Part shown: positions 26,361 through 56,952 of the stretch, one piece after another
Layout of the letters: each line of letters opens with the position of its first letter
How positions within the stretch are numbered: the stretch's first letter is position 1
DNA from: Propionispira raffinosivorans DSM 20765
Lineage (GTDB): Bacteria > Bacillota > Negativicutes > Selenomonadales > Selenomonadaceae
Reading direction: 5' to 3'
Assembly: GCF_000381065.1 (NCBI RefSeq)
Contig: NZ_KB905848.1
Span: 62,001 to 126,000, forward strand
Length of the DNA stretch: 64,000 nucleotides
The notes under the pieces: model-generated
Told to the model about the DNA's origin: nothing
The model's database searches: none
Seen by the model: the letters and a program-made list of their open reading frames with translations, nothing else
Made by a program: the position numbers and the translations under genes

Positions 26361-26640
26361 GTTTTCAAAAACTTCCATAAATGACGATAGCACTAGATCA
26401 AATTGAACACGCACTGTCGTTTTAAGGCATAAAAAAACGCCCCATATTAAAATGAAGCGCCTATTTTGAAGAAGTTACCTCTAAAATTTTAAGCATATCA
26501 AGAAAATGCTACTCACTATCCCATCGCCAGCATACAACCACTCCGAATGCAATCTACTATATACCCTTAAATCTTCCTGAGTTTTTCTATCCCCTGCAAT
26601 CGTTCTACGGCATCACGCAACGTAGATAGTTTTTTGCAAA
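26361..26640. repeat. ~275-bp duplicated segment, copy 1
   Basis: This segment matches 52418-52690 in the same orientation with only scattered differences. It holds the last 20 or so codons of the aminotransferase gene, its stop codon and the downstream terminator. Copy 1 belongs to the intact gene. Confidence 0.92.
26431..26462 (-). terminator. terminator of the aminotransferase operon
   Basis: Minus-strand GGCGCTTCA...TATGGGGCG stem followed by T7. It is the end of the transcription unit that starts at 35.89 kb. It is copied at about 52.49-52.52 kb. Confidence 0.75.
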
Positions 26641-27760
26641 ATGCAAAACGCAGCCATACCGACTCCGCTGAATATATATGATAGAATCCTGATAAAGGCA
26701 CAGCAGCTACACCCAACTTAGCTATGAGTTCTTTTACAAATTCAACATCATTTTTCCAACCTAAATAAGAAAAGTCCGCTAATAAAAAATACCCCCCCTG
26801 ACTTTTTAAGAAAGGGATTCCAATATTTCTAAAAGCATTGGTTAGATAATTACGACGCTCGGTATAATCTTTACGAAGATCCTCATAGTACGCAACCGGA
26901 GCAGTTACGCCCTGTATAATGCCTTGTTGCAGCGGTGCAGGACTACTGATAGTAAGGTAATTATGTGCCATCCGGATTCCTTCTGTAAGCCAGTCTGGAG
27001 CAATAATATAGCCTAATCGCCAGCCAGTAACACTATATGTTTTAGAAAATCCATTGATTGCAATCACTTGATTCTCCATTTCCGGCTGTAACCAGATTCT
27101 TGGCAAAGGACGGTTGTCAAAACAAATTTCATCATATATTTCATCTGTAATTACCAGAAGATTATATCGTTTGCAAATATCAACAATACTGTCTACCTCT
27201 TCTTGATCAAAAATACGACCCGTTGGATTATGCGGTGAATTAAATATAATGGCTTTTGTTTTATTTGTTATAGCACTTTCAATTTCTTTTTTATTAATGC
27301 GAAAATCAGGAAATGTGAGCGATACGTAGACTGGCTTCCCACCAAACAGCTCCACATCCGGTCCATAAATCGTAAATGCTGGTTCGATTATAATCACTTC
27401 ATCACCAGGATTCAATATAGCCAATAGCGTCGCAGCCATCGCCTCGGTAGCACCGCAACAAACGGTAATTTCTGTTTCCGGATTATAATGCACGCCATGT
27501 TTCTTATAGATTTTTTTTGAAATTTCTGTTCGCAGCTCTTCATTTCCCTGCATCAGTGCATATTGATTGCATCCTTCTTGAATGGCTTTAATCGCTGCCT
27601 CTTTTATACAGGCAGGTGCCGAAAAATCGGGCACTCCACCTGCTAAATCAATCGCATCATAACGCTTAACCAAAGGGGCAATCTTTCTAAAAACAGGTAA
27701 TTGCAAACCAGTAATTTTATTTGATAGAATACCTTCTATTTTCTGTGTAACCGCAGTCAT
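26567..27760 (-). CDS. class I PLP aminotransferase (methionine/aspartate type)
   Basis: 397 residues from the ATG at 27760 (TTGGAGGC upstream; an upstream frame extension overlaps the next gene). Fold-type I motifs are intact: DLAGGVPDF, CCGATEAMAATLLAI, FNSPHNPTGRIF, ITDEIYDEI, and PLP lysine in NGFSKTYSVTGWRLGY. This resembles the YbdL/KAT III group, which transaminates methionine, aromatic amino acids or 2-oxo-4-methylthiobutanoate. It ends the operon encoding the D1/K1 reductase, the Ssu-type transporter and a 2-hydroxyacid oxidase. Formation of an amino acid from a scavenged sulfur-containing oxoacid is plausible but inferred. Confidence 0.88.
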   Translation of the reverse strand: MTAVTQKIEGILSNKITGLQLPVFRKIAPLVKRYDAIDLAGGVPDFSAPACIKEAAIKAIQEGCNQYALMQGNEELRTEISKKIYKKHGVHYNPETEITVCCGATEAMAATLLAILNPGDEVIIIEPAFTIYGPDVELFGGKPVYVSLTFPDFRINKKEIESAITNKTKAIIFNSPHNPTGRIFDQEEVDSIVDICKRYNLLVITDEIYDEICFDNRPLPRIWLQPEMENQVIAINGFSKTYSVTGWRLGYIIAPDWLTEGIRMAHNYLTISSPAPLQQGIIQGVTAPVAYYEDLRKDYTERRNYLTNAFRNIGIPFLKSQGGYFLLADFSYLGWKNDVEFVKELIAKLGVAAVPLSGFYHIYSAESVWLRFAFCKKLSTLRDAVERLQGIEKLRKI

Positions 27761-27807
27761 ATTTCGCCTCCAAAATTGTTTTTTCAATACGCTAGCCACC
27801 AATTATT

Positions 27808-28824
27808 TCATTTATCAGAAATCGGTAATTCTTTATCATATTCATGACTCCAAAACGAACTAACATCAATATTCGTTTTAAGCACGCCCACTTCCAAAAA
27901 TTGCTTTGCAATATCTTGCTGAGAATCGATTGCTTTTTGTGAAACAGCCACAACTTTATCCGGTGACTGTGCCATACCTTCTTTAAAAGTAGCCAATGCT
28001 TGATCATAAGGTTGATGTGTATTGTCTGCAATAATCTGCGCCCATTTTTCTGGATTATTACGAGTCCATTCATACGCTTTGTTGATTCTTGTTAAATAAT
28101 CTGCAATTGCCGCTCGCTTTCCAGTATCACTTAAGGCCGAAATTGAGGCCTCTACGGGGAAATTACCTGATAAAATATCCTTCGCACTCACTAAAGTAAC
28201 CGCACCTTGTTGATGAGCTGAAATAATTGCATTTCCATAACTAGCTAAAGCTGCAATTTTCCCACCTGAAAAGGCAGTCAGCCCATCCGATGTAGATAAT
28301 TGAACCGGATTTACATCTTCCCACTTCATACCAGCTTGAGATAACATTTTCAGTAAAAAATAATGTGCAGTTGTATTATTTACATAAGCTATTTTTTGAC
28401 CTCTTAAATCTTTTATGCTCGTGACACCAGAATCTTTTGGCACAACTAATTCTTGATTTAACGTAGTAGATTGTGATACTGCAATAATTTTAAAATTCCC
28501 CTGATTTGCAGATTGTGCTGAAAAAATTGGTGGTATTTCGCTAGTCAAGGTAAAATCCAAATTGTCACTCGCCATCGCTTCCAAGCATAGATTTCCCCCT
28601 TGAAAAACTTTATAGTCAACCTTATAAGGTGTATCTGCAATCCCCGCTGCTTTTAGCATTAACTCGAAATTACTCCACCCCGTTTGACCAACACGAATCG
28701 TCACTTTGCTCAAATCATCAGTATCACCACTGCCTATTTGAGCATTGTTTGTTTGGTTGCCGGCACACCCTGCAAAGCCTATGCTGAGCCCAACTATAAG
28801 TAAAAACCATAAGACCTTTCTCAT
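27808..28824 (-). CDS. sulfonate/nitrate-type ABC substrate-binding lipoprotein (SsuA-like)
   Basis: 338 residues. A lipoprotein signal (LSIGFAGCAGN, lipobox Cys) is followed by an NMT1/SsuA-like binding domain (IRVGQTGWSNFELMLKAAG, DFTLTSEIPPIFSAQSANQG, IKDLRGQKIAYVNNTTAHYFL). The matching permease and ATPase are separated from it by the GlcD-like oxidase gene (36-nt gap), so the four genes appear to form one unit. Relatives bind aliphatic sulfonates, taurine, nitrate or thiamine precursors. The nearby sulfur genes favour an organosulfur substrate. Confidence 0.88.
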   Translation of the reverse strand: MRKVLWFLLIVGLSIGFAGCAGNQTNNAQIGSGDTDDLSKVTIRVGQTGWSNFELMLKAAGIADTPYKVDYKVFQGGNLCLEAMASDNLDFTLTSEIPPIFSAQSANQGNFKIIAVSQSTTLNQELVVPKDSGVTSIKDLRGQKIAYVNNTTAHYFLLKMLSQAGMKWEDVNPVQLSTSDGLTAFSGGKIAALASYGNAIISAHQQGAVTLVSAKDILSGNFPVEASISALSDTGKRAAIADYLTRINKAYEWTRNNPEKWAQIIADNTHQPYDQALATFKEGMAQSPDKVVAVSQKAIDSQQDIAKQFLEVGVLKTNIDVSSFWSHEYDKELPISDK

Positions 28825-28860
28825 AAATTACCTCCCGTGATTTCATTCTTAAATAAATTT

Positions 28861-30270
28861 TTATACAGTATCCATATCAAAAATTTTACCCGGATTTAAA
28901 ATAGCATTGGGATCAAATGCCGTTTTGATGGCTTTCATCAATAGGAGTTCAATTGGATCAGCTAGTGTTTCCAGCGTCTGCTTTCGCTTAAAACCAATTC
29001 CATGTTCACCGGAAAGACGTCCACCGATTTGATACGTCTGGGCATAAAGTTCCTGACGTAATAACGGCAGTGCAGCTTCCCAATTCGTATTTTCTGGTTG
29101 AGGTATGATTGCCAGGTGCATATTTCCATCTCCAGCATGACCAGCTATACGAAATTCAAAAGTCCATTTCTGAGAAAGATCTTCCAATATATCAATAAAT
29201 TTATTGATTTTATCAACAGGAACCACCAAATCTTCTGAAAAACGAATTGGATTTTTTGCTTCGATTGCCTTACCCCAAATGCGGCGAGCTGGCCAGATAA
29301 TATCTCCAGCGATTTCTTTGACAACAAGACTCCCCTGTTTTTGCGCTATTTCATCAAGCCGTTTTTTTCTGATAGAAATTTCATCTTCAGAATAAGCTTC
29401 CCATTGAATAATCAAACAATCACCTACTGGATGATCAAAGACAGGGTAGTTTTGATAGGCTTCAATATCTTTTGCAGTTTTAATATCAATTAATTCCAAA
29501 GACAACGGATCTAGTAATGGATCGGCTAACACCTGTTTCACTAAAGCAACAACCCCCTGCAAGTCTGGCATAACAACCAGATAGTTCGGATTAAATGGTG
29601 CTAGTGGCTGCAGCTTCAAAGTGGCTTTAGTAACAATGCCTAACGTTCCTTCAGACCCTGCCAATAAGCGAGGTAAATTATAACCCGTAGCATTTTTCTT
29701 AAGACGGCTTCCGATTGTAACAATTTCGCCCAGGGGAGTCACAATTTCCAAAGAATAAACTTGATCTGCCGTCACCCCATATTTTACTGCACGGTTTCCA
29801 CCCGCATTGGTTGCTATATTGCCAGCAATGACGCATTGATCATTACTGCAGGGATCTCCGGCATATAAAAAGCCCTGTTGATAGGCTGCCGTCTGAATAT
29901 CACTCGTCCGTACGGACGGTTCAACAACTATGTATTGTGCTTCACGATCTAAATGGATAATTTTATTCATTCGCGCCAAATCTAGTAAGATACCACCATA
30001 TAATGCCACAGCACCACCTGCTAGACCGCTGCCTCCACCACGAGGTGTCACCGGAATTAAATATTGATTGGCTAATTTGATGATCTTCGCTATTTCTTCT
30101 GCATTTTTCGGCAAAATCACAATCTCTGGATACTGTGGCTTATCATTTTTCGTAGCTGCATCATGACCGTATTCCTCTGTAATCTGTTGATGAATTAAGG
30201 TATATTCTTCTCCGACAGTTTGTTGTAACTGTTCAAGGATAAATGGCGTAATTAGATTATATTTTGTCAT
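28861..30270 (-). CDS. GlcD-like FAD-linked 2-hydroxyacid oxidase/dehydrogenase
   Basis: 469 residues with an FAD-binding PCMH domain (TPRGGGSGLAGGAVALYGGILLD split over residues ~75-100; NIATNAGGNRAVKYG; LAGSEGTLGIVTKA) and a C-terminal FAD-oxidase domain (AGHAGDGNMHLAI, GRLSGEHGIGFKRK). Relatives oxidise D-lactate, glycolate or other D-2-hydroxyacids to oxoacids. It lies between the permease/ATPase and binding-protein genes of the Ssu-type transporter. Combined with the next-gene aminotransferase, it could turn an imported 2-hydroxyacid into an amino acid. Confidence 0.9.
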   Translation of the reverse strand: MTKYNLITPFILEQLQQTVGEEYTLIHQQITEEYGHDAATKNDKPQYPEIVILPKNAEEIAKIIKLANQYLIPVTPRGGGSGLAGGAVALYGGILLDLARMNKIIHLDREAQYIVVEPSVRTSDIQTAAYQQGFLYAGDPCSNDQCVIAGNIATNAGGNRAVKYGVTADQVYSLEIVTPLGEIVTIGSRLKKNATGYNLPRLLAGSEGTLGIVTKATLKLQPLAPFNPNYLVVMPDLQGVVALVKQVLADPLLDPLSLELIDIKTAKDIEAYQNYPVFDHPVGDCLIIQWEAYSEDEISIRKKRLDEIAQKQGSLVVKEIAGDIIWPARRIWGKAIEAKNPIRFSEDLVVPVDKINKFIDILEDLSQKWTFEFRIAGHAGDGNMHLAIIPQPENTNWEAALPLLRQELYAQTYQIGGRLSGEHGIGFKRKQTLETLADPIELLLMKAIKTAFDPNAILNPGKIFDMDTV

Positions 30271-30327: not shown

Positions 30328-31098
30328 TTATATTGCATATTCTAATTTTTTAGTATCCCCGATGGCAGACTCTGCATTGCCCATTACTTTATTTAATATT
30401 TTCTTCTCATAATACGTAAAATCATTATTGCGATGACGCGGGCGCGACAATTGAATAGCAATATCCATTGCAATTTTCCCATGATCAATAAAAACAACCC
30501 GATTTGCTAATGCAACGGCTTCACTAACATCATGTGTTACTAAGATAGCCGTAAATTTTTTAGCGAGCCACAGTTTTTCAATCAGTTGTTGCATTTCAAT
30601 CCGGGTTAATGCATCTAATGCGCCTAATGGTTCGTCAAGAAGAAGCACTTCCGGCTCAGCAACAAGTGCTCTTGCCAAGGCTACCCGCTGTTGCTGCCCC
30701 CCCGATAGAATATCTGGCCATTTATCATTGTGCTCTTCAAGTCCAACATCGTGTATTACCTGCTTGGCAATGCTTGTATTTTCTTTTTGCATACCAAGTT
30801 TCACATTATCGATCACCCTTTTCCACGGAAGAAGCCGTGCCTCTTGGAAAAGGACTCGGATCTTTTTATTTATTCCACAGAGTTCTTCTCCCTGCATTTT
30901 AATTGACCCTTTTGTTGGTGTTTCTAGCCCTGAAATCAATCGTAATAACGTACTTTTTCCACAACCACTGCGCCCAACAATTGCTACAAATTCCCCCTGT
31001 TTTATATGCAAATTAATTCCATGCAATACCTTCGTTTCACCAAAAGATTTGTTTACATCTTCAATATTTAAATATTCTTGTGCTTCGTTGATTAGCAT
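30328..31098 (-). CDS. sulfonate/nitrate-type ABC ATPase (SsuB-like)
   Basis: 256 residues from the ATG at 31098 (GGGAG upstream; the GTG at 31107 is too close). Walker A VGRSGCGKSTLLRLI, Q-loop LFQEARLLPWKRV (the LLPW signature of the SsuB/TauB group), signature [15 protein letters not shown], Walker B LLLDEPLGALD and H-loop VTHDVSEA are intact. It energises the adjacent permease (12-nt gap). Confidence 0.92.
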   Translation of the reverse strand: MLINEAQEYLNIEDVNKSFGETKVLHGINLHIKQGEFVAIVGRSGCGKSTLLRLISGLETPTKGSIKMQGEELCGINKKIRVLFQEARLLPWKRVIDNVKLGMQKENTSIAKQVIHDVGLEEHNDKWPDILSGGQQQRVALARALVAEPEVLLLDEPLGALDALTRIEMQQLIEKLWLAKKFTAILVTHDVSEAVALANRVVFIDHGKIAMDIAIQLSRPRHRNNDFTYYEKKILNKVMGNAESAIGDTKKLEYAI

Positions 31099-31110
31099 AT
31101 CTATCACTCC

Positions 31111-31887
31111 CTACAATTTTTCAGTTTGCCACTTCAACCATTTTCTTTCTAAGTAACAGGCAATACTATCTGACAATTTTCCTAGTAACGCATATACAAG
31201 AATGCTCAATACAATTACATCCATTTGCATAAATTCTCTTGCATTCATTGCCATATAACCAATACCTGAATTTGCTGCTACGGTTTCAGCTACAATTAAA
31301 GTCAGCCACATAATTCCTAAACCATAACGTACACCAACTAATATCGAGGATAGTGACCCTGGTAATATAATATTCCAAAACAATGCTGCTCCATGTAATC
31401 CATAAACTTTTCCCATTTCAATAAGACGTGTATCTATCCTACGAATGCCATGAAACGTGTTTAGATAAATAGGAAAAAACACACCGAGTGATACAAGAAC
31501 TAATTTAATCTCTTCACCAATACCAAACCAAAGAATCAATAACGGAATTAATGCCAAATGAGGTATGTTTCGAATCATCTGAATAGACGCGTCAAGAAAT
31601 TGTGCCGATGTTCTGGATAATCCATTTGAAAGCCCTAATAGGAACCCAATACCACCGCCTATAATAAACCCGCTAAAAGCACGCTGTGTACTAGACCCTA
31701 TGTATCGTATCAATTCACCATTACTTATCAATTTAATAAAAGTATCAATTACCTTTATGGGCTGTGGTAAAATTTTATTAGATACAATACCATCACTTGT
31801 TGCAAATTGCCAAAATAGCAATAATATAGCAGGAATTATCCATGGAATTATTTTGTTTAACACATAGGCTTTTTTCAATACAAGCAT
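31111..31887 (-). CDS. sulfonate/nitrate-type ABC permease (SsuC-like)
   Basis: 258 residues with six membrane segments and the inner-membrane coupling loop EMGKVYGLHGAALFWNIILPGSL, which is characteristic of SsuC/TauC permeases. AAGGAG lies well placed before the ATG. It is the first gene after two tandem terminator/antiterminator elements that separate it from the D1/K1 genes. The whole transporter would bring an anionic, probably sulfur-containing, compound into the cytoplasm. Confidence 0.9.
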   Translation of the reverse strand: MLVLKKAYVLNKIIPWIIPAILLLFWQFATSDGIVSNKILPQPIKVIDTFIKLISNGELIRYIGSSTQRAFSGFIIGGGIGFLLGLSNGLSRTSAQFLDASIQMIRNIPHLALIPLLILWFGIGEEIKLVLVSLGVFFPIYLNTFHGIRRIDTRLIEMGKVYGLHGAALFWNIILPGSLSSILVGVRYGLGIMWLTLIVAETVAANSGIGYMAMNAREFMQMDVIVLSILVYALLGKLSDSIACYLERKWLKWQTEKL

Positions 31888-32187: not shown

Positions 32188-33552
32188 TCAAGCACTCTTG
32201 CTGATGGCGGCTGTAAAAATATTTTCCAAAAGCGTCAAAGCACCACGATAGCCAATATATGTCTTATTCAAAACCACCTCATACGATGCCGGAAAACCAA
32301 TCTCAACAATATTTCCATTTAGAGCTTTCGCCGTATCTCGTTCCCAAGTTGTACCAAAAATAATTGGTGGTTTATGCCCAAAATCTGTTTTTCTCAAGAT
32401 TTCTCCCACAATATAGCCATCTTCCACAAACTCCACCGTCGTCGCTACATCTTCCGCCAAATGTGCATATTCCTTGGCAATCGCCTCACGATATTTTTCC
32501 GGAGCTTTATCGGTAATAATCTGTTTACCTGGAATAAGCCCCAACTGATTGACCAAAAATTTATTGATTGCCAAATTATAAATGCTATCCCCAACTACTG
32601 CATACGTTGCCGGCAGGCCCCACCAATATTCAGCATAAAAATCAGTAAAATGCTCCAGATAATAATAATATTCTTTTTCTTCTTGTTTGATGAATGCATC
32701 TACATGTGTGATATCTAAACCAGCAAAGTCAACAATTTTGTGTAAAAACTCTGCTGTTTGCCCAGCCCCAATCGGGAGCACCGGAATATGCAAATATGGC
32801 TGATTATATTTTTTTTCTAAATATTTTGCTGTACTTAAACCCATCCAAGGTGAAACCACCAAATTAAATTGTGCATTTGGTATAGTTTTCCATTCTGCAA
32901 TTCCTTTTGAACCATTGCCAAATAAAATATTAACTTGAAACCCAGCTCCTTCAATGACACGTTTTAATTCTACCAAGTCACCACGCCAAAAGGTATTTTG
33001 AAAAGGTAATTCTGACCATACATTAATTAAGCCCTTGATTTTTTTATCTTTATTTACTGCATATTTATCAACATATTGTTCAATGATTGCCTCGGTAATA
33101 ATTTCATGTCCAATAAAATTATTACCTTTAAATCCTCCTGTTTCAGCGTATACAATCGGCACATTTTTTTCTTGGAACTTACTAACGACCGAAAATACAT
33201 CATCACCCACGATTTCGCCAATGCAGCCATTAAGCACTACAAATAAATCCGCTTCCATAATTTTAAGCGTTGCCGAAATCAATTCGCTCAATTTCTTTTC
33301 ACCGCCAAAAATAACTTCATTTTCTCCAAGATTATCGCTCGGTGTAACCGAACCGCCAGCATAGCCGCCCCCTTGGAATCCATTATAAAAGGCTAAACTT
33401 GTATATTGCTTGTCAACACAGCCTGGTCCGCAATGCGCAATCGGCATTGCTCCCGGAATCGCCGTCACGGAATGCAATGCTCCAAGTGCGCAGCCATAAC
33501 GAACCTGATTGATGGAATTCGTCTGTCCATTTTTATCCTTATTTATCGCCAT
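32188..33552 (-). CDS. nitrogenase-like component 1 beta subunit, K1 (NifK-like)
   Basis: 454 residues, shorter than NifK because it lacks the N-terminal extension. The three P-cluster cysteines are in place: C21 (YGCALGA), C45 (HCGPGC) and C110 (LNGCIGEIVGDD). The three-domain NifK fold continues through SPWMGLSTAKYLEKK, the Tyr-rich EEKEYYYYLEHF helix and the C-terminal YIGYRGALTLLENI. It would pair with D1, encoded 15 nt upstream, to hold the P-cluster. Such K subunits do not bind the active-site cofactor. It is related to K3 (same Tyr-rich helix) more than to K2. It is likely a subunit of a Mar-type reductase, not of nitrogenase. Confidence 0.9.
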   Translation of the reverse strand: MAINKDKNGQTNSINQVRYGCALGALHSVTAIPGAMPIAHCGPGCVDKQYTSLAFYNGFQGGGYAGGSVTPSDNLGENEVIFGGEKKLSELISATLKIMEADLFVVLNGCIGEIVGDDVFSVVSKFQEKNVPIVYAETGGFKGNNFIGHEIITEAIIEQYVDKYAVNKDKKIKGLINVWSELPFQNTFWRGDLVELKRVIEGAGFQVNILFGNGSKGIAEWKTIPNAQFNLVVSPWMGLSTAKYLEKKYNQPYLHIPVLPIGAGQTAEFLHKIVDFAGLDITHVDAFIKQEEKEYYYYLEHFTDFYAEYWWGLPATYAVVGDSIYNLAINKFLVNQLGLIPGKQIITDKAPEKYREAIAKEYAHLAEDVATTVEFVEDGYIVGEILRKTDFGHKPPIIFGTTWERDTAKALNGNIVEIGFPASYEVVLNKTYIGYRGALTLLENIFTAAISKSA

Positions 33553-33567: not shown

Positions 33568-35088
33568 TTACCCATTGATGACTTCTGGATGTTTTGCTAA
33601 CAGATATGGATCTTTTTGTTCAAGCCACCATTTTTTATATGGCAGTTTCGTATGTGCTTTAATATCATCATGGAATTTTTTATGTGCCAAAACATCTAAA
33701 ATCGATTCACCCAAATTTACAATACCATCATAACCAATGGCGATATGTTCATCGCCAAGTGGTGCTGCCGGAATCCCCATTCTGGACGCAAGCGGCGCCA
33801 GCCCATTATGACGAATCAAGATAAAATCAGGGTTCACTTCCTTAAGTAAACCATAAAATTGATACTGCTGCCGGTTACTCACATTAAAGGAGCCAACATC
33901 CCCATAATTTTCAATTAAATGTCCTAAAGAATCTTCCCGCGGGTCACCACTATCATAAACAGGGTCATGATGAAATACAAGCGATCCATTAACTTCAACA
34001 TCCAGCTCACGCAGGACCTGAATCAACCCATGTGCATAGGCTGATCCAGTTGCCACGTACCCTTTGATTCCTTTGAGCTTTTGCTTAAGCTGGGCAATTC
34101 GTGGTGCAACACGTTTGTGTTCAGCCTCAATGAATTGTTCTACCAGATCTTCGCGATGTGTGACTTTAGCAATTTCACGAAGCCAGGCATCCGTACCCGC
34201 AAATCCATATGGCATTGGAGCTTTTACTTCTGGAACACCAAAATGCTGCTCTAAGGCTGCTGCCATATAGGAAGACAATGTATAACAAAAGCCTACCGTC
34301 GCCGCCGCTTCCGAAAGCTGTGCCAAATCATCAACCGAAGCTAAATCAACAACATAATTCACCCGCAAATTAAGATTTGCCAACATTGGCGTAAACACAT
34401 CGGAACCCCAAAGATTGATAACATTCACCAAATCTTCTTGTTTTTTGGGATTACGCTTTACAAGCTGTCGTAAAATCCCATGCTGCGTAGCATCGAAACC
34501 AGTACTCCAATGTTTCGAACGAAAGCCTTCGCAGGCAATTGGAATAACTGGAATTTTAAGCTCCGCTTCTTTTTCCCGAGCAATACTTTCCATATCTTCA
34601 CCAATAATTCCCGTTGCACACGACGTAGCAATAAATATTGCTTTAGGTTGATAACGTTCCCAGGCATCATCGATCGATTGTTTCAATTTTTCCGCAGCGC
34701 CAAAAACCATATCGCTTTCGATTAAGTTCGTATTGATGATACGAATATTTTCAACTTTATGATGACGCATCGCTAATCCATTTCGATAAATGGAATTATA
34801 CGGAACCTGTCCTGCCCCGCAGCCAATCGGTGAATGTTGAATAAGAACTGCATCCCGGACATTACCGGCCTGACATTCTACCATCTGTTCACTGCAAACT
34901 GAGCCTTGTGTAAAAGGACCTTTGACTTCACAAAGCCGGCAGCCGTCTTTCTTCTTGCCGCAGGCACGACTTTCATAACCAGACTCTCTATGCAAATCAC
35001 TTGCTTTGCCATCCCAGGCAATAATAGTCCCCAACCGATGTTCCCGACTTTCCACTTCGGCAATGTCCAAATTGATTTTCTTTGGCAT
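33568..35088 (-). CDS. nitrogenase-like component 1 alpha subunit, D1 (NifD-like)
   Basis: 506 residues. P-cluster-type cysteines are C65 (SVCSEQ), C90 (SPIGCGAG) and C157 (TSCATGIIGED). C268 in GFCYTLSSYM lies where NifD has the Cys ligand of its cofactor (same 19-residue spacing to the following G-V-P). At the NifD His-442 position there is no His; the segment is GDEHIAIGYDG with H448 six residues later. An extra N-terminal cluster C43/C50/C53 is present. These traits imply a metallocluster-containing catalytic subunit with an altered second ligand. It is encoded with K1, behind RNA element B, downstream of the YezD-like gene. Confidence 0.9.
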   Translation of the reverse strand: MPKKINLDIAEVESREHRLGTIIAWDGKASDLHRESGYESRACGKKKDGCRLCEVKGPFTQGSVCSEQMVECQAGNVRDAVLIQHSPIGCGAGQVPYNSIYRNGLAMRHHKVENIRIINTNLIESDMVFGAAEKLKQSIDDAWERYQPKAIFIATSCATGIIGEDMESIAREKEAELKIPVIPIACEGFRSKHWSTGFDATQHGILRQLVKRNPKKQEDLVNVINLWGSDVFTPMLANLNLRVNYVVDLASVDDLAQLSEAAATVGFCYTLSSYMAAALEQHFGVPEVKAPMPYGFAGTDAWLREIAKVTHREDLVEQFIEAEHKRVAPRIAQLKQKLKGIKGYVATGSAYAHGLIQVLRELDVEVNGSLVFHHDPVYDSGDPREDSLGHLIENYGDVGSFNVSNRQQYQFYGLLKEVNPDFILIRHNGLAPLASRMGIPAAPLGDEHIAIGYDGIVNLGESILDVLAHKKFHDDIKAHTKLPYKKWWLEQKDPYLLAKHPEVING

Positions 35089-35234: not shown

Positions 35235-35609
35235 TCAAATACCTTCGCCATCCAATCCAGTAAACTCTTGGAAGCGATGTTTTTCGGTACGTTCAATTTG
35301 AATGATTTTCCCTTCCTTGATTACAATGACAATTTGTCCATATTCTAAATCACCAAATTCTTTTTGAATCTTTTTACCAATTTGCGTATAATCTGACTTT
35401 TTCTCTACATTCAATTTCTGATCGCGAGTAATCATATCACATGGCCGTATTTTCTCATTGCGCTCAATCTGGACCAGACGAAAATTCTGTGTGACAAGAG
35501 TTACATTACCATGAAAGGTTGTTTTTAAAACATCTACAATCTGTTCCATTAAATGTTTTGAAATCGCTGAATTTGGATTTGTCCCAATCTGTATTTTTCT
35601 TACAGCCAT
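35235..35609 (-). CDS. tandem YezD/DUF2292-like protein
   Basis: 124 residues made of two YezD-like repeats: one around residues 25-55 (HGNVTLVTQNFRLVQIERNEK) and a closer match around 85-118 (EYGQIVIVIKEGKIIQIERTEKHRF). YezD/DUF2292 proteins are normally single-domain (about 50-60 aa) and are found in sulfur-assimilation operons, with unknown function. The doubled form here sits between NifH and D1 and is flanked by RNA elements A and B. It supports a sulfur role for the locus. Recognition rests on the G-x-V-x-I-x-x-x-x-V-Q-I-E-x-T-E-K pattern. Confidence 0.78.
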   Translation of the reverse strand: MAVRKIQIGTNPNSAISKHLMEQIVDVLKTTFHGNVTLVTQNFRLVQIERNEKIRPCDMITRDQKLNVEKKSDYTQIGKKIQKEFGDLEYGQIVIVIKEGKIIQIERTEKHRFQEFTGLDGEGI

Positions 35610-35938: not shown

Positions 35939-36799
<861 letters not shown>

Positions 36800-40953: not shown

Positions 40954-41003
40954 AAACTGATCCTTTCTGCCACATGATTCGTCTTCATATTCTTTCGCTT
41001 TGT

Positions 41004-43379: not shown

Positions 43380-43410
43380 AAAATGGACCTCCTCCACAAT
43401 CATAACCGGC

Positions 43411-49078: not shown

Positions 49079-49834
49079 TTAAATATAATACATATTTTCT
49101 GCCGAAATAATCCGTGCCAAAAACTGTTTCGTTCGTTCTTCTTTGGGATGTCGGAAAATTTCTGCCGGAGTACCCGCTTCGACAATAAAACCACCATCCA
49201 TAAAGACAACTTTGCTCGCGACATCTTGCGCAAAAGACATTTCATGCGTGACAACAATCATCGTAATACCACGCTCAGCTACACTTTTTATAACCGCGAG
49301 TGTTTCACCAACCAGTTCAGGGTCCAGTGCTGAGGTTGGCTCATCAAATAAGATAACCTCAGGATCTAAGACCACAGCTCTGGCAATCCCAACACGCTGC
49401 TGCTGTCCCCCTGATAACTGGCATGGGTAGGCATCTTTTTTTGCCAATAACCCCACCCAAGCCAATGTATCTTCTGCTTTTTTTTTCGCATCCCCATATG
49501 GTACATGCCGTGCTGTAATCAGTCCTTCCATAACATTTTCTAAGGCTGTTTTATTATGAAACAAGCTATAATTTTGAAAAACGAACGCTGTTTTGCGTCT
49601 AATTTCCAAAATTTCTTTGCTTGAAGCTTTTTTCAAATCTACCGTTTGCTCACCAATTGTCAATGTACCGGCATCGGCTTTTTCCAAAAAATTAATGCAG
49701 CGCAGTAAAGTTGTTTTTCCTGAACCACTTGGTCCAAGTATTACAATGACATCGCCTTTGTTAACCTGAATAGAAACATCGTGTAATATCTCATTTTTCC
49801 CAAACGACTTTTTTGCATTTTTAATTTCGATCAT
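49079..49834 (-). CDS. polar amino acid-type ABC ATPase, system 2
   Basis: 251 residues. Walker [15 protein letters not shown], signature [15 protein letters not shown], Walker [15 protein letters not shown] and H-loop VTHEMSFA are intact and typical of GlnQ/TcyN-type importers. It overlaps the upstream permease gene by 4 nt and precedes D2, which places the transporter in the same operon as the D2K2 and D3K3 reductases. Confidence 0.93.
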
Positions 49835-50538
49835 ACTAAATTCCTCCTGTATTTATCACCCCGTTTTTCAATACGCCTGGCAAATTTTTCGACAAGGATT
49901 GTAAAAATCCAATAAATCAAAGCAGCAGCGATATAGCCTTCAAAAAAAGCATATGTTTTTGAAGCTGGAATAACAGAACCTGCCAGCACTTCTGTTATTC
50001 CAATAACCATAACAATCGAAGAACCTTTAATGGTACCCACAATATTATTCGTCAGCATCGGCAATGCTACTGGAATAACCTGGGGAATAATAATCCGTCG
50101 CAACGTTTGCAGCCTCGTCAAGCCTACTGAATACCCTGCCTCATACTGCCCTTGGTCAACGGAGAAAAACGCACCTTTTATGGATTCTTCCATATAGCAG
50201 GTCGCATGCAGTGATAAAGCAAAAATACCAATCCAAATCGTATTAATGTCAGCCATGCTGATGCTTAAATGTAAAACCGCTGCAAAATTATTGAATGTAG
50301 CCATAAACAAAAGATGATAAATCATCAAGGCTACGACAAGCGGTATACCCTGATATAACGTAATCAAAAAAGCCAATAGCGGGGCGAAAAAGGGAATTCT
50401 ATAAACCCGAATTACAGCGATCAATATTCCCAAACATAAGCCAACCAATATTGGAATAAAGGTCAGTTCAAAGGTATTCGGCAGATACTCGATACCCGAT
50501 CGCACAGAGTCATAAAAATAAATAAAATTAAAACCCAT
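49831..50538 (-). CDS. polar amino acid-type ABC permease, system 2 (second)
   Basis: 235 residues with five membrane segments and the HisM/GlnP coupling loop [28 protein letters not shown]. It is encoded between permease 1 (9-nt gap) and the ATPase (4-nt overlap). The pair would form a heterodimeric channel. Confidence 0.9.
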
Positions 50539-50547
50539 CGTATCTCC

Positions 50548-51234
50548 TTATCTGCCATAGGCTAATTTTTTATCTAAAAGATAAAACGCACCTTTGACCA
50601 GCAAACTGATAATAATAAAAAATATCGCAATAAAAACATACGCTTCTAATACATGTTTTGTAGCTGTCCCAATCGTTTTTGCTCTGCCCATAATGTCTAC
50701 AACACCAATTAAAAATGCCAATGATGTATTTTGAAACAACCCGATAAAGTCAGAGCCAAAACTCGGAACCGCTACCCGCACTGCCTGAGGCAGGATAATC
50801 CGCCGAAAAGCTTGAAATTGTGTCAATCCAACAGAGTAAGCCGCTTCCAGTTGTCCAGTCGGTATCGCTAAAATGGAGCACCTAAAGATTTCCGATAAAA
50901 AAGCTCCCTGATTGAGTATATATGTAATATATACAAAAATAATTTTATCCCAACGATTTACATTAATATTGAACAATTGCTGCATCACGATCGGAATCCC
51001 GTAAAAGACAACCAACAATTGAACCAACATTGGAGTACCACGCATAAAAGATACATAAATCCCCGCCACCTGATGAAGAATCGGTATTTTTTTTATCCGG
51101 ATCACGGCAACCAGCATAGCCAAAATGACACCAAACAACGTAGCATAAAAAACAATTTTAAAAGTAACCGGTAGATACGCTACAATTTGGGGTATATTTG
51201 TAAAAAACCTGTCCCAATCAAACAAATCCACCAT
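50548..51234 (-). CDS. polar amino acid-type ABC permease, system 2 (first)
   Basis: 228 residues, five membrane segments, loop EAAYSVGLTQFQAFRRIILPQAVRVAVP typical of the PAAT family (cystine/glutamine/histidine importers). Only 6 nt separate it from the binding-protein gene. Confidence 0.9.
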   Translation of the reverse strand: MVDLFDWDRFFTNIPQIVAYLPVTFKIVFYATLFGVILAMLVAVIRIKKIPILHQVAGIYVSFMRGTPMLVQLLVVFYGIPIVMQQLFNINVNRWDKIIFVYITYILNQGAFLSEIFRCSILAIPTGQLEAAYSVGLTQFQAFRRIILPQAVRVAVPSFGSDFIGLFQNTSLAFLIGVVDIMGRAKTIGTATKHVLEAYVFIAIFFIIISLLVKGAFYLLDKKLAYGR

Positions 51235-51240
51235 CGCTAT

Positions 51241-52056
51241 TTACTCACTTTCTGTGTAATTACCGCCAATTACTTTCGTAGAAATCTCAGCTAATTTACC
51301 TGATTCTTTTAATTTCTTCAAAGCTCCATCAATTGCCGTCTGCAATTCCGTATTACCTTTCGCAAACACAAAGTAAGTCTTGGATGTAGCAACAGGTTCC
51401 CCCACTTGTTTGAGAACAGACTGCCCGTTACCATATGCTTTATTGAATTTATCCGCATCACGTTTTGTTACAATGACTGCATCCCAGACCCCATTATTAA
51501 TGCCAACAACCGTTTCTTCATCGGTACTATTATCGGCATAAGCCAAAATGATTGGATTATCTTTGTGCGTTTCATTGAATTTTTCCAAAAGATACGTTGA
51601 ATTACTGCCAGTTGAAGTCTTGACCTTCTTACCCTGTAAATCACTTAAAGAATGAATCGTTTCATTTTTTGCCGCTACTGTAACATACGTTGTATACGTC
51701 GTATAGCTTTCTTGTCCGAATAAATATTTTTTCTGACGTTCTTCATTTGATTCATACTGATGTGCACCAATATCAATTTTGCCAGCATCTAATGAAATAA
51801 GCACATTCGCAAAATCATACGTTTGAAATTCAAATTTATACTGCGGCAATAATTCATTGACTGCCTTTAATACCTCATATTCATAACCACTTAAATTCCC
51901 GTCCTTATCTAAATAGCAATATGGTTCATAATTATTGCCTGTACCAACAATAATTGTCTTTACATTTGTATCACTATTGGTTGTGCCGCATGCCGTAAGC
52001 AGGACAATACTTACTAAACTCATCATTACTACGGTAATAATTTTGCTAATTTTCAT
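51241..52056 (-). CDS. cystine/amino acid-type ABC substrate-binding lipoprotein, system 2
   Basis: 271 residues from the ATG at 52056 (AGGTGGAA upstream); the frame is open further to 52308 but that stretch contains RNA element F and has no family similarity. A lipobox lies in VLLTACGTT. The bilobal SBP_bac_3 fold is visible: YEPYCYLDKDGNLSGYEYEVLKAV, DIGAHQYESNEERQKKYLF, DLQGKKVKTSTGSNS. It resembles TcyA/K-type sulfur amino acid binders. It is the first gene after the 52.4 kb promoter. Confidence 0.9.
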   Translation of the reverse strand: MKISKIITVVMMSLVSIVLLTACGTTNSDTNVKTIIVGTGNNYEPYCYLDKDGNLSGYEYEVLKAVNELLPQYKFEFQTYDFANVLISLDAGKIDIGAHQYESNEERQKKYLFGQESYTTYTTYVTVAAKNETIHSLSDLQGKKVKTSTGSNSTYLLEKFNETHKDNPIILAYADNSTDEETVVGINNGVWDAVIVTKRDADKFNKAYGNGQSVLKQVGEPVATSKTYFVFAKGNTELQTAIDGALKKLKESGKLAEISTKVIGGNYTESE

Positions 52057-52168
52057 AATTTCCACCTTTGACCTCTCAAAATTTATAATATAATTTCTTA
52101 TATTGCATATATAACAGCATGGTATTAAACCTACTACTATCATATAGTTAGCAATCGCTGGATTGGCA

Positions 52169-52239
52169 TAAAAAAAGAGGTTATAAAATATGCACAGTGC
52201 AAATTTTATAACCTCTAGTTTTCTAGTCAGTTGATAAAC
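52169..52239 (-). promoter_or_regulatory. RNA element F: antiterminator/terminator switch
   Basis: Minus strand: TTTATcAAC - TGA - hairpin CTAG-AAAA-CTAG - AG - GTTATAAA (one bulged C in P1). P1' is part of the terminator arm AGAGGTTATAAAAT, which pairs with ATTTTATAACCTCT (52176-52216) and is followed by T7. It lies in the leader of the operon that encodes transporter 2, D2K2 and D3K3. Confidence 0.82.
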
Positions 52240-52348
52240 GGTATGTAATTTCCAAACTATCTGTAAAGGATAAAATGTATAACATAAACCTACAGATATT
52301 TTCGTCAAAGCAATATCATACTCTGGTTATATGAATACTATGAATATC

Positions 52349-52732: not shown

Positions 52733-53494
52733 TTATATATTATATTCTTCTTGCGGTAGGATGCGACGGAGAAACGTTTTCGTGCGTTCTTCTTTGGGTC
52801 TGAGAAATATTTCTTTGGGCGGTCCTTCTTCAACAATCTTGCCATCTGCCATGAACACGACATTTGTCGCAACATCAGCAGCAAATTTCATTTCATGCGT
52901 CACAATAACCATTGTTTTTCCTTCTTTTGCCAGCTGTTTAATAACAGCCAATACTTCTCCCACAAGTTCAGGATCAAGGGCTGAAGTTGGTTCATCAAAC
53001 AAAATAACATCCGGTTCCACAGCAATTGCTCTGGCAATACCTACTCGTTGCTGCTGTCCACCAGAAAGTTGAGACGGATAAAAAGAAGCCCGATCCGCAA
53101 GTCCGACTTTTTCTAAAGCCTTCATGCCAATTTCAACTGCTTTTGTTTTCACAATTCCTCTACCCACAATGAGACCCGTCGTTACATTCTCTAAAGCTGT
53201 TTTATTTTGAAATAAATTATAATTTTGGAAAACAAATGCTGTTTTTTGGCGAATTTTGCCAATTTCTTTGGAAGACACTTTATGCATGTCAATAGATATG
53301 GTGTCGAATTCCATCTCGCCCTGATCGGCTCGTTCTAAAAAATTCATGCAACGCAGTAAAGTTGTTTTTCCCGAACCGCTCGGTCCCAAAACAACAACGA
53401 CATCACCTTTTTCGACCGTGATATCAACACCTTTTAAAACTTCTTCTTGTTTATATTTTTTATATATATTTTTTACTTTCAACATTTTATCCAC
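52733..53494 (-). CDS. polar amino acid-type ABC ATPase, system 1
   Basis: 253 residues, closely similar in layout to the ATPase of system 2: Walker [15 protein letters not shown], signature [15 protein letters not shown], Walker [16 protein letters not shown]-loop VTHEMKFA. It is the last gene of transporter operon 1 and is adjacent (next base) to the permease gene. Confidence 0.93.
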
Positions 53495-54208
53495 CTACTT
53501 TTGTTTACTGAGACGATACCGTCCCATATGTGCTTCAGCAAAATGGAATAACACCTGTGCAATTGAACAGATGATAATATACCCCACAAAAACATCCAAA
53601 TAAGCCTCAATGTAATTGTACCCATAAGAAGCTGAAACTTTTGCCACTGCAGTCATATCTTTTACCGTCATCAAAAAAGCCAGTGATGTTCCTTTAATTA
53701 AATTCACCGTAAGATTACAAATATTCGGCATAGCAACAACCATTGCCTGTGGCAGTAAAATATGAATATATGCCTGCACCTTCGTTAATCCCGCACACTC
53801 GGCGGCTTCAAGCTGTCCTTTTTCAACACTACCAAACGCTGAACGCAGTACTTCGGATAAAAGCGCGATAATATTTAACGTAAATACAATATATGCATAA
53901 AAAATAGGGTCCCAGTCAAACACATTAATATCAAATGACCAGGCTTTCATCAGTGCGTTAAGCAGACTTGGCAACAAACTATAAATCATGAGAATCTGCA
54001 ATACGATCGGTGTACCTCGAACAAAAGTGACATAAGCACTCACAGGCACCTTCCAAAGGTTCTTGCCTTTTTGCAAGCGAATAAGAGCGATCACGAAAGC
54101 GAAAGGGGCTGCCGCCAAAAGAGGTATAATGGTAAGTTTAAGCGTAGTTGGCACAGCTGCCAAAACAATATAAAATGTATCGATTAAAAATTTATAATTG
54201 ATTTCCAT
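53495..54208 (-). CDS. polar amino acid-type ABC permease, system 1 (second)
   Basis: 237 residues, five membrane segments, coupling loop EAAECAGLTKVQAYIHILLPQAMVVAMP of the HisM/TcyL type. Adjacent to the ATPase gene and 17 nt downstream of the other permease gene. Confidence 0.9.
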   Translation of the reverse strand: MEINYKFLIDTFYIVLAAVPTTLKLTIIPLLAAAPFAFVIALIRLQKGKNLWKVPVSAYVTFVRGTPIVLQILMIYSLLPSLLNALMKAWSFDINVFDWDPIFYAYIVFTLNIIALLSEVLRSAFGSVEKGQLEAAECAGLTKVQAYIHILLPQAMVVAMPNICNLTVNLIKGTSLAFLMTVKDMTAVAKVSASYGYNYIEAYLDVFVGYIIICSIAQVLFHFAEAHMGRYRLSKQK

Positions 54209-54225
54209 TGCCTATTCCTCCCTTG

Positions 54226-54924
54226 TCAAGCTGCCTGTTTATGCCGAGAAAATCTTTGTTCAATCCAAAGGAATAGTTTTTCCATACCAATGGTAAGAAT
54301 CAGATAAATCAATGCCAAAGCCAAATATGTTTCCATTGCATAGGCACCATAATTCATTGATACAATAAGCTGCCCCTTACCGATAAGATCAATAAACCCG
54401 ATGGTATAGGCTAACGAGCCATCCTTCATTAAACTAATGACCGAGTTGCCAAAATTCGGCAAAGCTACGACGGTCGCCTGGGGTAAAACAATATGAAAAA
54501 ACGCCTGCCACGGACTAAGACCAATACTAACAGCTGCTTCATATTGTCCGTGATCAATCGCTTCATATGCAGACCGCATAACCTCAGAAACAGGTGCAGC
54601 AAAAAGAAAGGTGAAGCTTATAATTACAAAAAACAATTTGTCATAATCATTGATATTCGTATCTAATACTTCCAAACAAAATTTTGGTAAACCGTAAAAC
54701 ACAATAAACAAAAGTATGATCGGCGGCGTGCAGCGAATGATATACGTATAAGCTTGTGCCAATCGCCGAAAAAGCTGGTAAGAACCCTCTTTCGCCCAAG
54801 CCAATAACCCGCCAGCAATGGAACCGAAAAAAATCGTTCCCACTACCACAGCAAGCGTTGCTGACAAAAAGGGCAGCAATATTGGAAAAACATCAACTAA
54901 AAATTGTAGAGAAAATGGACGCAT
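54226..54924 (-). CDS. polar amino acid-type ABC permease, system 1 (first)
   Basis: 232 residues, five membrane segments, coupling loop EAAVSIGLSPWQAFFHIVLPQATVVALP. Encoded 22 nt downstream of the binding-protein gene. Confidence 0.9.
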   Translation of the reverse strand: MRPFSLQFLVDVFPILLPFLSATLAVVVGTIFFGSIAGGLLAWAKEGSYQLFRRLAQAYTYIIRCTPPIILLFIVFYGLPKFCLEVLDTNINDYDKLFFVIISFTFLFAAPVSEVMRSAYEAIDHGQYEAAVSIGLSPWQAFFHIVLPQATVVALPNFGNSVISLMKDGSLAYTIGFIDLIGKGQLIVSMNYGAYAMETYLALALIYLILTIGMEKLFLWIEQRFSRHKQAA

Positions 54925-54946
54925 AGGGATTCTCTCCTTTAAGCAA

Positions 54947-55810
54947 TCAGTCTTTTACATATTGGAAAAGATCTTCACCAAAATATTTATTTTCGAGTTC
55001 CTTAATCTTCCCACTATCTTTTAATTGTTGAATTGCTTTATCATAATCATCAGCCAATTGCTGATTCTTTTTATTGAAAACTGGATAGGTTGGAATCGCT
55101 TTATATCTTACAAATGAAAGTTTATCCGCTAAATTGTGGTAAGAACCGGTTTCTTTTTCCACATTGCTTTTGTAACTAAGTTCAATATCAATATAAGCAT
55201 CATAACGACCTTCTAAAACCCAGGTATATGCATCAGCAACCGTAAAAGCTTCCGAAGAAACCAACCTAATTGGCGTATCCGCATGCGTTTTATTAAAAGC
55301 TTCAATAACATTATATTGAGCATTTTGTGGTGCAATCGGTACTAGCTTGCCACTAAACTTGGCAAAGGATTCAATATCCTTAATCTGATCGGCATTGTCT
55401 TTACGATATACTAAACCGATAACACTTGCGCCCACTGGCTCTTTCGGGAAAATGAATTTTTCCTTACGAGCTTCGGTGAGCCATGCACCTTTTGTACCCA
55501 AATCGTATTTTCCCGACTCAACGCCAATTAAAAGATCATCATCTGAGGTTGGCACAAATTCAAATTTATACTGTGGCAAAAGTTTTTGTACTTCTTGTAA
55601 TACAGCAACTTCGAAGCCGTCGGATTCACCCTTATCATTCACAAAATCATAAGGTACATAAGCTTGTGTATGGGCAATACGAACAACTTTAGGTCCACCC
55701 TCGGCTGCACCGGAAGATTTATCAACTGTCTTGTTTGCACCGCCGCAGCCAGCTAACCCCAAAGCAAGACCAGCTATAATAAATAACCCAAAAACGTTTT
55801 TCAATTTCAT
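54947..55810 (-). CDS. cystine/amino acid-type ABC substrate-binding lipoprotein, system 1
   Basis: 287 residues from the ATG at 55810 (AAGGAG well placed). Lipobox LGLAGCGGA. SBP_bac_3 fold: YVPYDFVNDKGESDGFEVAVLQEV, LGTKGAWLTEARKEKFIFP, VLEGRYDAYIDIE. It shares with the system 2 binder the core LLPQYKFEF and the FNKTH/FNETH segment, so the two transporters are paralogues. It lies 35 nt downstream of the UroD-like gene in the same operon. Confidence 0.9.
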   Translation of the reverse strand: MKLKNVFGLFIIAGLALGLAGCGGANKTVDKSSGAAEGGPKVVRIAHTQAYVPYDFVNDKGESDGFEVAVLQEVQKLLPQYKFEFVPTSDDDLLIGVESGKYDLGTKGAWLTEARKEKFIFPKEPVGASVIGLVYRKDNADQIKDIESFAKFSGKLVPIAPQNAQYNVIEAFNKTHADTPIRLVSSEAFTVADAYTWVLEGRYDAYIDIELSYKSNVEKETGSYHNLADKLSFVRYKAIPTYPVFNKKNQQLADDYDKAIQQLKDSGKIKELENKYFGEDLFQYVKD

Positions 55811-55845
55811 AATTTCCATCTCCTTACAACTTTTATCAAATAAAT

Positions 55846-56841
55846 TTACTTTTTCCCTGCGTCACGTACCCATTCAAGACGTTCTAACGCTAACCCACGC
55901 GGTACAGTACAATCAGCTCCCAATAAGATGCCTTCACGACCTGCTTCTGCAAGCAAACGCTGTGTTTCCGCTTTGACGGCTGCTTCATCACCTTTAGCGA
56001 GAATGTCTTCTACCGTGTTGCCAAAGCCACCAATGACAGCCTTCCCACCAAAGATTTTTTTCCCTTCTGCCAAGGAAATATTTTCTACAATCGCCGCCCA
56101 ATTATATGCTTTTACCTCATAGTTAACATACCACGTCAAATCGTTATGGTGTCCATCATAACCACAAATATGCAAAACATTATTCAGGTTCGCACGATTT
56201 GCTGCTTGTAATATTTTTTGTTCACCTGGAGCAAAAACATCTAAATATACATCCTTTGTAATACGTGAATCATCAATATTCTGTACACTGAAATAAATTC
56301 CATCCGCACCACCTTCTTGTATGATTCGTTCCGCTAGCGTTGCGATATCTTGTGCAATGACGTCCAGCCCACGTTTAACAGCCGCTTTATCTTCCGCAAT
56401 AAAGTCACCAAGTAAGGTTTTATTATAATTCGGTAATGACCATTCGAGTACACGTGCTGGGGCAAAAATATTATAAAAGGTGAATACTTCTCGTTTAATA
56501 AATTTCTGTAATTCTTTGACTAAAGCAACCTGTTTTTCAATCCAAGGATGATCTTTACCAAGTGGCTCTAATTTGCCAAAATCTACTGCCGAATGAATAG
56601 CAGCGAACGCTGGATGCGGATAAATAAAATATCCATCACTCATCAGTTTCACAAAATCCGGTTTGAATGCCTCATAAAAAGCTCGATGCCCCTCAATATT
56701 TTTTTCAGAAAGTGTTGGATCGGTAAATGCATCCGCCTTATCTTCATTCTCTACAAAATGAAACCAAAATCCAACAGGTACTCGTTCTATTTTTTTATTT
56801 TCTAATGCCGCTTCCACAAGTTCTCTCTTTGTCTGTGTCAT
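55846..56841 (-). CDS. UroD/MtaA-like protein (cobalamin methyltransferase superfamily)
   Basis: 331 residues from the ATG at 56841 (GGTGA upstream). The uroporphyrinogen decarboxylase fold is visible: RELVEAALENKKIERVPVGFWFHF start, DFVKLMSDGYFIYPHP, GADGIYFSVQNI, HICGYDGHHND, and AVIGGFGNTVEDI. HxCG-type and C-terminal GADCTVP residues are as in the MtaA/MtbA/CmuA methyltransferase branch, which transfers methyl groups between corrinoid proteins, thiols and substrates using zinc, rather than as in heme-pathway HemE. It heads the operon for transporter 1, so it may act on the imported methylated compound. Confidence 0.85.
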   Translation of the reverse strand: MTQTKRELVEAALENKKIERVPVGFWFHFVENEDKADAFTDPTLSEKNIEGHRAFYEAFKPDFVKLMSDGYFIYPHPAFAAIHSAVDFGKLEPLGKDHPWIEKQVALVKELQKFIKREVFTFYNIFAPARVLEWSLPNYNKTLLGDFIAEDKAAVKRGLDVIAQDIATLAERIIQEGGADGIYFSVQNIDDSRITKDVYLDVFAPGEQKILQAANRANLNNVLHICGYDGHHNDLTWYVNYEVKAYNWAAIVENISLAEGKKIFGGKAVIGGFGNTVEDILAKGDEAAVKAETQRLLAEAGREGILLGADCTVPRGLALERLEWVRDAGKK

Positions 56842-56886
56842 AAAAAATTCACCATGCCTTCTCATTATTTTTAAAATAATTACGCT

Positions 56887-56952
56887 AAAACATATAATTA
56901 ATATATGTTTTATTTGTAATTATAATATTAGCATAGTTTATTTGTATGTCAA
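56887..56952 (-). promoter_or_regulatory. promoter with palindromic AT-rich box before the UroD-like gene
   Basis: Minus-strand TTGACA (56947-56952) and an extended -10 TGCTAATAT with a 16-nt spacer. Downstream at 56887-56911 is a 10-bp-arm palindrome (AAAACATATA / TATATGTTTT around TTAAT) related to the CATAT-TAAT boxes at 35.85 and 52.4 kb. Confidence 0.65.

Follow-up and report, generated by a model that had tools for sequence, protein, structure and literature searches.

A sulfur-linked nitrogenase-like locus in Propionispira raffinosivorans: one NifH-type Fe protein beside MarDK and two uncharacterised reductase-like pairs

The DNA described here, which we call the window, is a stretch of 64,000 nucleotides from Propionispira raffinosivorans DSM 20765, corresponding to positions 62001-126000 of contig 10 in a draft genome of 4.13 Mb. 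Between window positions 26567 and 56865, entirely on the minus strand, nitrogenase-like genes are interleaved with genes for cysteine synthesis and solute import. A sequence-only reading had proposed an expanded, sulfur-scavenging relative of methylthio-alkane reductase (Mar) at this place, and every gene it named is an intact open reading frame (ORF). Six of the ORFs match PF00148, at 212-267 bits, and make up three D/K pairs: D1 (33568..35088) with K1 (32188..33552), D2 (44766..46226) with K2 (43411..44709) and D3 (47561..49000) with K3 (46263..47549), D being the alpha and K the beta subunit. Beside them lie a single NifH-type Fe protein of family PF00142, NflH (35939..36796), and NflB (37896..38762), a NifB-type radical SAM core without the NifX domain, which scores 276 bits to TIGR01290 over residues 10-269 (cut-off 344 not reached). 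Two NifX-like proteins match PF02579, NflX1 (38805..39176) at 72 bits and NflX2 (40501..41019) at 45 bits, the latter with a Gly/Cys-rich insert. CysKa (36873..37841) is a cysteine synthase A that passes the TIGR01139 cut-off of 351 with 445 bits, and CysKb (42396..43403) is cysteine synthase-like, with 320 bits to TIGR01136 (cut-off 344 not reached).

The rest of the genome puts this locus in perspective. It holds 14 PF00148 genes: nifDK, nifE and a nifN-nifB fusion on contig 9, anfDK on contig 2, and four further pairs, three of them in the window and the fourth, D4/K4, on contig 27 (L010:8480-11312). The count of three pairs in the sequence-only reading was right for the locus and one too low for the genome. 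Sets of nifHDKEN and anfHDGK are present, each with its own Fe protein; AnfD, AnfG, AnfK, NifE and NifB exceed their NCBIfam cut-offs, and NifD and NifK fall just below. The six window proteins and D4 score far below the cut-offs of the nitrogenase models. We also considered the tetrapyrrole reductases and rejected them, the best scores among the six window proteins being 106 of 490 bits for BchB, 70 of 324 for BchN and 56 of 268 for CfbD. The only other TIGR01290 match besides NflB is the NifB fused to nifN. No Fe-protein ORF was seen in a stretch of 19 kb that contains D4/K4; by names assigned by eye, a MetNIQ-type importer flanks the pair on one side, and CBS/CysK, cystathionine gamma-synthase (CGS) and Ssu-type genes flank it on the other.

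The first pair proved easy to place. D1 and K1 are 75 and 64% identical to MarD and MarK of Rhodospirillum rubrum (9fmg), with 849 bits to 9fmg_A for D1 and 672 bits to 9d9u_C/9fmg for K1. In a 62-row tree of D subunits, which held no BchNB, CfbD, NfaD or IsrD sequences, D1 shares a clade with R. rubrum MarD (100/100), and D4 is the sister of that clade, barring one long-branch row. A Heliophilum homologue of D4 (P0340, 73% identical) falls within the D4 clade. D2 and D3 lie outside the MarD clade. D2 forms a clade of its own that joins the MarD/D1/D4 group at 100/100, and the D3 clade lies outside all of these, in a deep order that is not firm and carries a long-branch warning. D1 to D4 are separate from the genome's own NifD, NifE and AnfD, and D2 and D3 fall together with Mar in that division, so the tree does not place all pairs within true nitrogenase. 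The best solved relative of D2 is MarD (293 bits); K2 (PF00148, 246 bits) is 40% identical to MarK, and K3 35% (252 bits). Identity to MarD is 32% for D2 as well as for D3, and 29% between the two. Judged by sequence, then, pair 1 is MarDK itself and not a mere relative, and pairs 2 and 3 each represent an uncharacterised clade of their own. The relationship to Mar in the sequence-only reading stood, as did a role in sulfur supply and the presence of several reductases beside one donor; the description of pair 1 as a relative of Mar did not.

Cysteines occupy all six P-cluster positions in D1-D3 and K1-K3, and likewise in the fourth pair, those of the K subunits having been read by eye from the alignment. 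The cofactor cysteine (Cys270 of MarD, Cys275 of NifD) is kept in all four pairs. The Arg428-His429 pair of MarD loop I is present in D1, D2 and D4, and in 120 of 120 D2 homologues among the matches listed; it is absent from D3 and from 120 of 120 D3 homologues among the matches listed. D3 has a histidine, His422, that aligns with nitrogenase His442 in two alignments (in one of them for all 120 homologues listed), a wider alignment having placed the gap otherwise. As in NifD, this residue sits 9 positions ahead of the Gly-aromatic anchor, and its equivalent is absent from D1, D2 and D4. Nitrogenase Gln191 and His195 are replaced by Trp and Phe in D2 and by Cys and Phe in D3. A further clade of nitrogen-fixation-like (NFL) proteins turned up with an adjoining CysK (L101:7487, L102:9787, L106:7320); in the L101 member, the Mar-loop His and the nitrogenase-type His occur together.

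The Fe protein of the locus is not of the MarH type. Strong PF00142 genes number three in the genome (409-434 bits), one beside nif, one beside anf and one in the window, with the next match at 167 bits, and a MarH-type Fe protein was not among the PF00142 matches. The assertion of a single Fe protein therefore stands for the locus and for the four non-nitrogenase pairs, and not for the genome, where nif and anf have their own. NflH shares 79% identity with the NifH of its own genome and 66% with AnfH, and scores 479 bits to the 1cp2 Fe protein and 283 bits to MarH. A tree of 39 rows unites NflH with its locus homologues in one clade (96/91), next to the NifH of clostridial nif clusters and far from the MarH-type. 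Window NflH scores 464 bits to the TIGR01287 nifH model (cut-off 394) and six NifH-type locus homologues 456-464, which is no sharp test since a MarH-type protein (L065) also passes, with 411. Among the H genes of 30 loci containing D3 homologues, described below, 27 are NifH-type (80-84%), two are MarH-type (L015 and L065; 51-52%) and one is a fragment (44%). In Propionispira arboris no MarH-type gene was found either, its only Fe-protein matches scoring 621, 492 and 410 bits. As neither genome yielded such a gene, a NifH-type protein is the most likely donor for MarDK in Propionispira, which carries the prediction that an Fe protein of the nitrogenase lineage can drive MarDK.

A scan with D3 gave 185 relatives in named genomes, of which we kept the best 80 as loci; many of these are short, and two (L043 and L079) gave no D3 ORF under the filter used. 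The hosts are Lachnospiraceae, Ruminococcus, other Clostridia, and Treponema and its kin, many from records titled rumen or gut. Around D3 in these 80 loci we found K3 in 78, NflX2 in 44, K2 in 42, D2 in 37 (three of them ORFs of <400 aa), NflH, NflB and NflX1 in 29 each, CysKb in 27 and CysKa in 19. The order CysK-NflB-NflX1-NflH-CysK-D2K2-NflX2-D3K3 is repeated, for example, in L071, L078, L082 and L091. The locus of P. arboris (L012, L107, L108) is 91-100% identical gene by gene, with NflX1 at 76%. When 60 related genomes, that of the window included, were compared, D3 was limited to the two Propionispira, so a horizontal gain of the locus is likely. The NflX2 insert has at least three cysteines in 44 of 45 homologues, as against 7 of 29 NflX1 homologues, and NflX2 is a possible cluster carrier. 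Descriptions of the D2/D3 cassette as a unit were sought in the open-licence PubMed Central (PMC) literature, and none was found.

D2 and D3 travel together. In 50 carrier genomes chosen by hand, 44 have a D2 orthologue of at least 67% identity; 46 passed the E-value, two of which, G069 and G086 (38% identity), we left out. The six misses are an isolate (G063) and five metagenome-assembled genomes, namely G065, G077 and G081, with two PF00148 genes each, and the two just left out, which have a different pair. The isolate, an Anaerocolumna, has D2 as an ORF of 99 residues only (L015:1862-2161) with a longer K2 adjoining, truncated or broken in the record. In a sample of 200 genomes from a single family, all eight D3 genomes also have D2 (Fisher 2e-11), a ninth D3 match (G270, 45% identity) having been left out of the count. 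Most carriers appear to have no nitrogenase: 41 of the 50 are without a PF00148 gene above 300 bits, a threshold taken from the window's own genome, and one or more such genes belong to each of the nif and anf sets observed. A NifH-type gene is present in 33 of these 41. The Butyrivibrio carriers L018, L027 and L034, which by this threshold have no nitrogenase, have theirs within the D3 locus. Two other arrangements caught our eye. In L105 (contig 51 of G062), an additional PF00148 pair, divergent at 27% to D3, and a NifB-like ORF accompany an anf-like cluster, and in Clostridium aminobutyricum (L100:8861-13400) two MarD-like genes flank one MarK-like gene, with MarH-type and CGS-like genes too.

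The neighbourhood speaks of sulfur. For comparison with the 36 of the 80 D3 loci that are at least 18 kb long, we used 40 control windows in 15 carrier genomes, their round coordinates having been chosen by hand before their contents were known. CysK occurs in 23 of the 36 loci and in 0 of the 40 controls, the PatB C-S lyase in 10 against 0, CGS in 6 against 0, a CymR-like Rrf2 regulator in 12 against 1 and an amino-acid-type binding protein in 15 against 0. NifI, NifV, ModAB and AnfG were found in none of the 80 D3 loci. The siroheme reductase family PF01077 is present in 5 of the 41 nif-less carriers and in 8 of the 9 with nif, and the CysD/CysH family, above 100 bits, in 3 of the 41. In the family sample, where 96 of the 200 genomes have a PF01077 gene, it occurs in 1 of 13 D2 genomes versus 95 of 187 others (p 0.003), and in 0 of 8 D3 genomes versus 96 of 192 others (p 0.007); these p values are optimistic because the genomes are related and some incomplete. 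With sulfite reductase and sulfate activation so scarce, most carriers seem to have no route for sulfate assimilation, and would depend on sulfur in reduced or organic form. That need argues for enzymes whose product is sulfide or a thiol, and not sulfite.

The remaining genes of the locus lie around this core. At its low-coordinate end are a class I/II aminotransferase (26567..27802; PF00155, 227 bits), an SsuA-like sulfonate-type binding protein (27808..28824; TIGR01728, 150 bits, cut-off 163 not reached), a GlcD-type FAD 2-hydroxyacid dehydrogenase (28861..30270; TIGR00387, 321 bits, cut-off 568 not reached) and an SsuB/SsuC-like ATPase and permease (30328..31887; ABC_tran, and 327 bits to the SsuC model, cut-off 347 not reached). 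Between D1 and NflH lies a DUF2292 protein resembling YezD and OscA (35235..35609; PF10055, 71 bits; OscA model 43 bits, cut-off 85 not reached), a relative of which was found in none of the 80 D3 loci. Beyond D3 are two amino-acid-type ABC importers, one amino-acid/cystine-type (49079..52308), to whose binding protein those counted near D3 are homologous, and a second (52733..55819), which with the Ssu-type system make three importers in all. A URO-D/MtaA-CmuA-like methyltransferase homologue (55846..56865; PF01208, 39 bits) closes the locus. We tried the last as part of an mlp cluster of the kind described in PMC10418091 and ruled it out: it occurs in 1 of the 80 D3 loci, that of P. arboris. 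Upstream of NflX1 there are a GNAT gene and a perfect hairpin of 20 pairs with a T run (39258-39305). The hairpin was dropped as a candidate attenuator; P. arboris is without it, and its leader matches over the last 50 bases only.

Our favoured explanation, with a probability of roughly 0.62, is that this is a sulfur-scavenging locus in which one NifH-type Fe protein and one NifB would serve three reductases, the methylthio-alkane reductase MarDK together with D2K2 and D3K3, the latter two cutting C-S bonds of imported organosulfur compounds and releasing sulfide for the two CysK. The Ssu-type and amino-acid-type importers would take up small organosulfur compounds; as a group they suggest sulfur amino acids, and sulfonates more weakly. 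NflB would build a carbide-centred [Fe8S9C] cluster, NflX1 and NflX2 would carry it, and its insertion would proceed without NifEN. NflH would use ATP to pass electrons through the P-cluster to the reductases. D1K1 would release methanethiol, a product shown in print for R. rubrum Mar, and D2K2 and D3K3 would release sulfide, or a thiol one step from sulfide. CysK would make cysteine; overall, methanethiol and sulfide would feed methionine and cysteine. The Mar step draws on close homology to a characterised enzyme, and the roles suggested for D2K2 and D3K3 on gene context and ligands. A more elaborate version strikes us as rather unlikely: a relay for cysteine sulfur in gut and rumen Clostridia and Spirochaetes, in which D2K2 cuts the C-S bond of an imported organosulfur compound and D3K3, its cluster held by the nitrogenase-type His, performs the last multi-electron step to sulfide in place of siroheme sulfite reductase, with a shared, recruited NifH that has been counted as gut nifH, and MarDK plugged in by Propionispira.

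What the sequences show is the gene content, the clades, the ligand residues, the cassette that recurs with its sulfur neighbourhood, and how scarce sulfite reductase is in carriers; from these we infer the substrates, the products, the sharing of the Fe protein and the type of cluster. Several points weigh against the explanation we favour. The NifB and NifX steps are proposed from homology, and NflH may also be a nitrogenase donor. The neighbours vary: at least one of CysK, CGS, PatB and CysE is found in 28 of the 36 long loci, and CysK in 9 of 15 loci from the genomes that gave the controls. CysE (4 of 36 versus 1 of 40) and SsuC (3 of 36 versus 0 of 40) are not significant, which leaves the sulfonate importer weakly linked. 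Why P. arboris, which shares the locus, should need it is less obvious, given that its genome also contains nif, anf, a PF01077 gene and a member of the CysD/H family. A search for riboswitches in the window and 14 loci (13 D3 loci and L010) put only tRNAs over threshold.

Other explanations can be drawn from the same data. D3K3 might be a NifEN-like scaffold that matures the cluster for D2K2, and for D1K1, and is no enzyme at all. Such scaffolding has been proposed for linked NFL pairs (PMC3464626), D3 is seldom without D2 (0 of 8 in the family sample), and NifE is the best NCBIfam model for both D3 and K3, far below the cut-off (175.6 and 124.6 of 505); the last argument is weak, because D4 is also closest to NifE. 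We regard the scaffold as an unlikely role for this pair. Less likely still is that one of the new pairs reduces sulfite, released from imported sulfonates, to sulfide in place of siroheme sulfite reductase. Six-electron chemistry suits the cluster, CysK needs sulfide, carriers are mostly without PF01077 and Ssu-type importers adjoin in some loci; against this, the scarcity of sulfate activation (CysD/H in 3 of 41) leaves sulfonates as the only source of sulfite, and the Ssu link is the weak one given above for SsuC.

An alternative nitrogenase, as argued in print for the group IV NfaDK of Endomicrobium, is a very improbable identity for the extra pairs. It would agree with an Fe protein that passes the nifH cut-off, a retained cofactor Cys, a Heliophilum protein in the D4 clade and reports of nitrogen fixation in the gut (PMC4995403). 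It sits badly with the sulfur neighbourhood of D3, from which NifI, NifV, ModAB and AnfG are missing, with the replacement of Gln191 and His195, and with a genome that already has nif and anf. Hardly any weight goes to D2K2 or D3K3 being isethionate reductases (Isr) or their close kin. A Ssu-type importer and a radical SAM protein do lie near the reductase, as in Rhodobacter capsulatus (PMC11423573), but IsrD, as published, keeps one of three P-cluster Cys and has no Cys275 equivalent where D1-D4 keep all, NflB is NifB-like where IsrB is described as not (PMC11423573), and a sulfite product would call for the sulfite reductase that is scarce in carriers.

Were the shared sulfur-scavenging system correct, two widespread and uncharacterised nitrogenase-like clades would gain a function, part of the 'pseudo-nifH' of anaerobic guts would be explained, and caution would be due in reading Butyrivibrio-type NifH as a sign of nitrogen fixation. 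Sulfur supply may be the real task of some gut genes that have been taken as nitrogen-fixation markers. The question raised in PMC12552129, that of cofactor binding in the ancestral enzyme, is one to which the D3 clade is relevant: its members do not have the Arg-His pair of MarD, and in two alignments they have a His in line with the nitrogenase ligand.

Parts of this picture have precedents. Pseudo-nifH has been described in Clostridia and Negativicutes (PMC8597730), and the T3-nifH of that paper resembles NflH in being nifH-like, abundant in guts and found in genomes without nifDK; the word sulfur is absent from the text of PMC8597730, whereas here we propose the Fe protein of a sulfur cassette. 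NifH sequences of Lachnospira and Butyrivibrio relatives have been put forward as those of candidate gut diazotrophs (PMC4995403), and we infer that these survey sequences are the NifH-type gene of D3 loci. A termite spirochete has group-IV nifD and nifK in an operon with cysteine synthase (PMC13067680). As early as 2012, gene context tied Cys275-bearing homologues to CysK and O-acetylhomoserine (OAH) sulfhydrylase (PMC3464626); none of the alpha-related sequences described there has His442, whereas D3 has an aligned His.

Three pairs under one Fe protein had been called unusual, a claim weakened by Syntrophobotulus glycolicus, with nine pairs (PMC3464626), and by Heliophilum fasciatum, where a single NifH-like gene accompanies five NflDK pairs (PMC9147875). 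Heliophilum NflDK1-5 share with our locus the several NFL pairs, the single NifH-like gene, NifB and NifX, as well as the member of the D4 clade. Its Fe protein groups with MarH according to PMC9147875, unlike NflH, which groups with NifH, and nitrogen fixation was predicted for its NflDK1 in the same paper. IsrBHDK (PMC11423573) is likewise an NFL system for sulfur assimilation beside a Ssu-type importer; as described there, IsrD is without equivalents of Cys62, Cys154 and Cys275 and IsrB is not NifB-like, whereas the window locus has them all. Methylthio-alkane reductases are marked by the reduction of 2-methylthioethanol, DMS or ethyl methyl sulfide. Among the closest known systems is MarBHDK of R. 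rubrum (9fmg, 9d9u), which agrees with D1K1 in sequence, in the Arg-His loop and in the P-cluster and cofactor cysteines, and with the locus in having a NifB-type helper and no NifEN. The window differs from it in its Fe protein, NifH-type and distant from MarH, and in the addition of two pairs, two CysK and two NifX.

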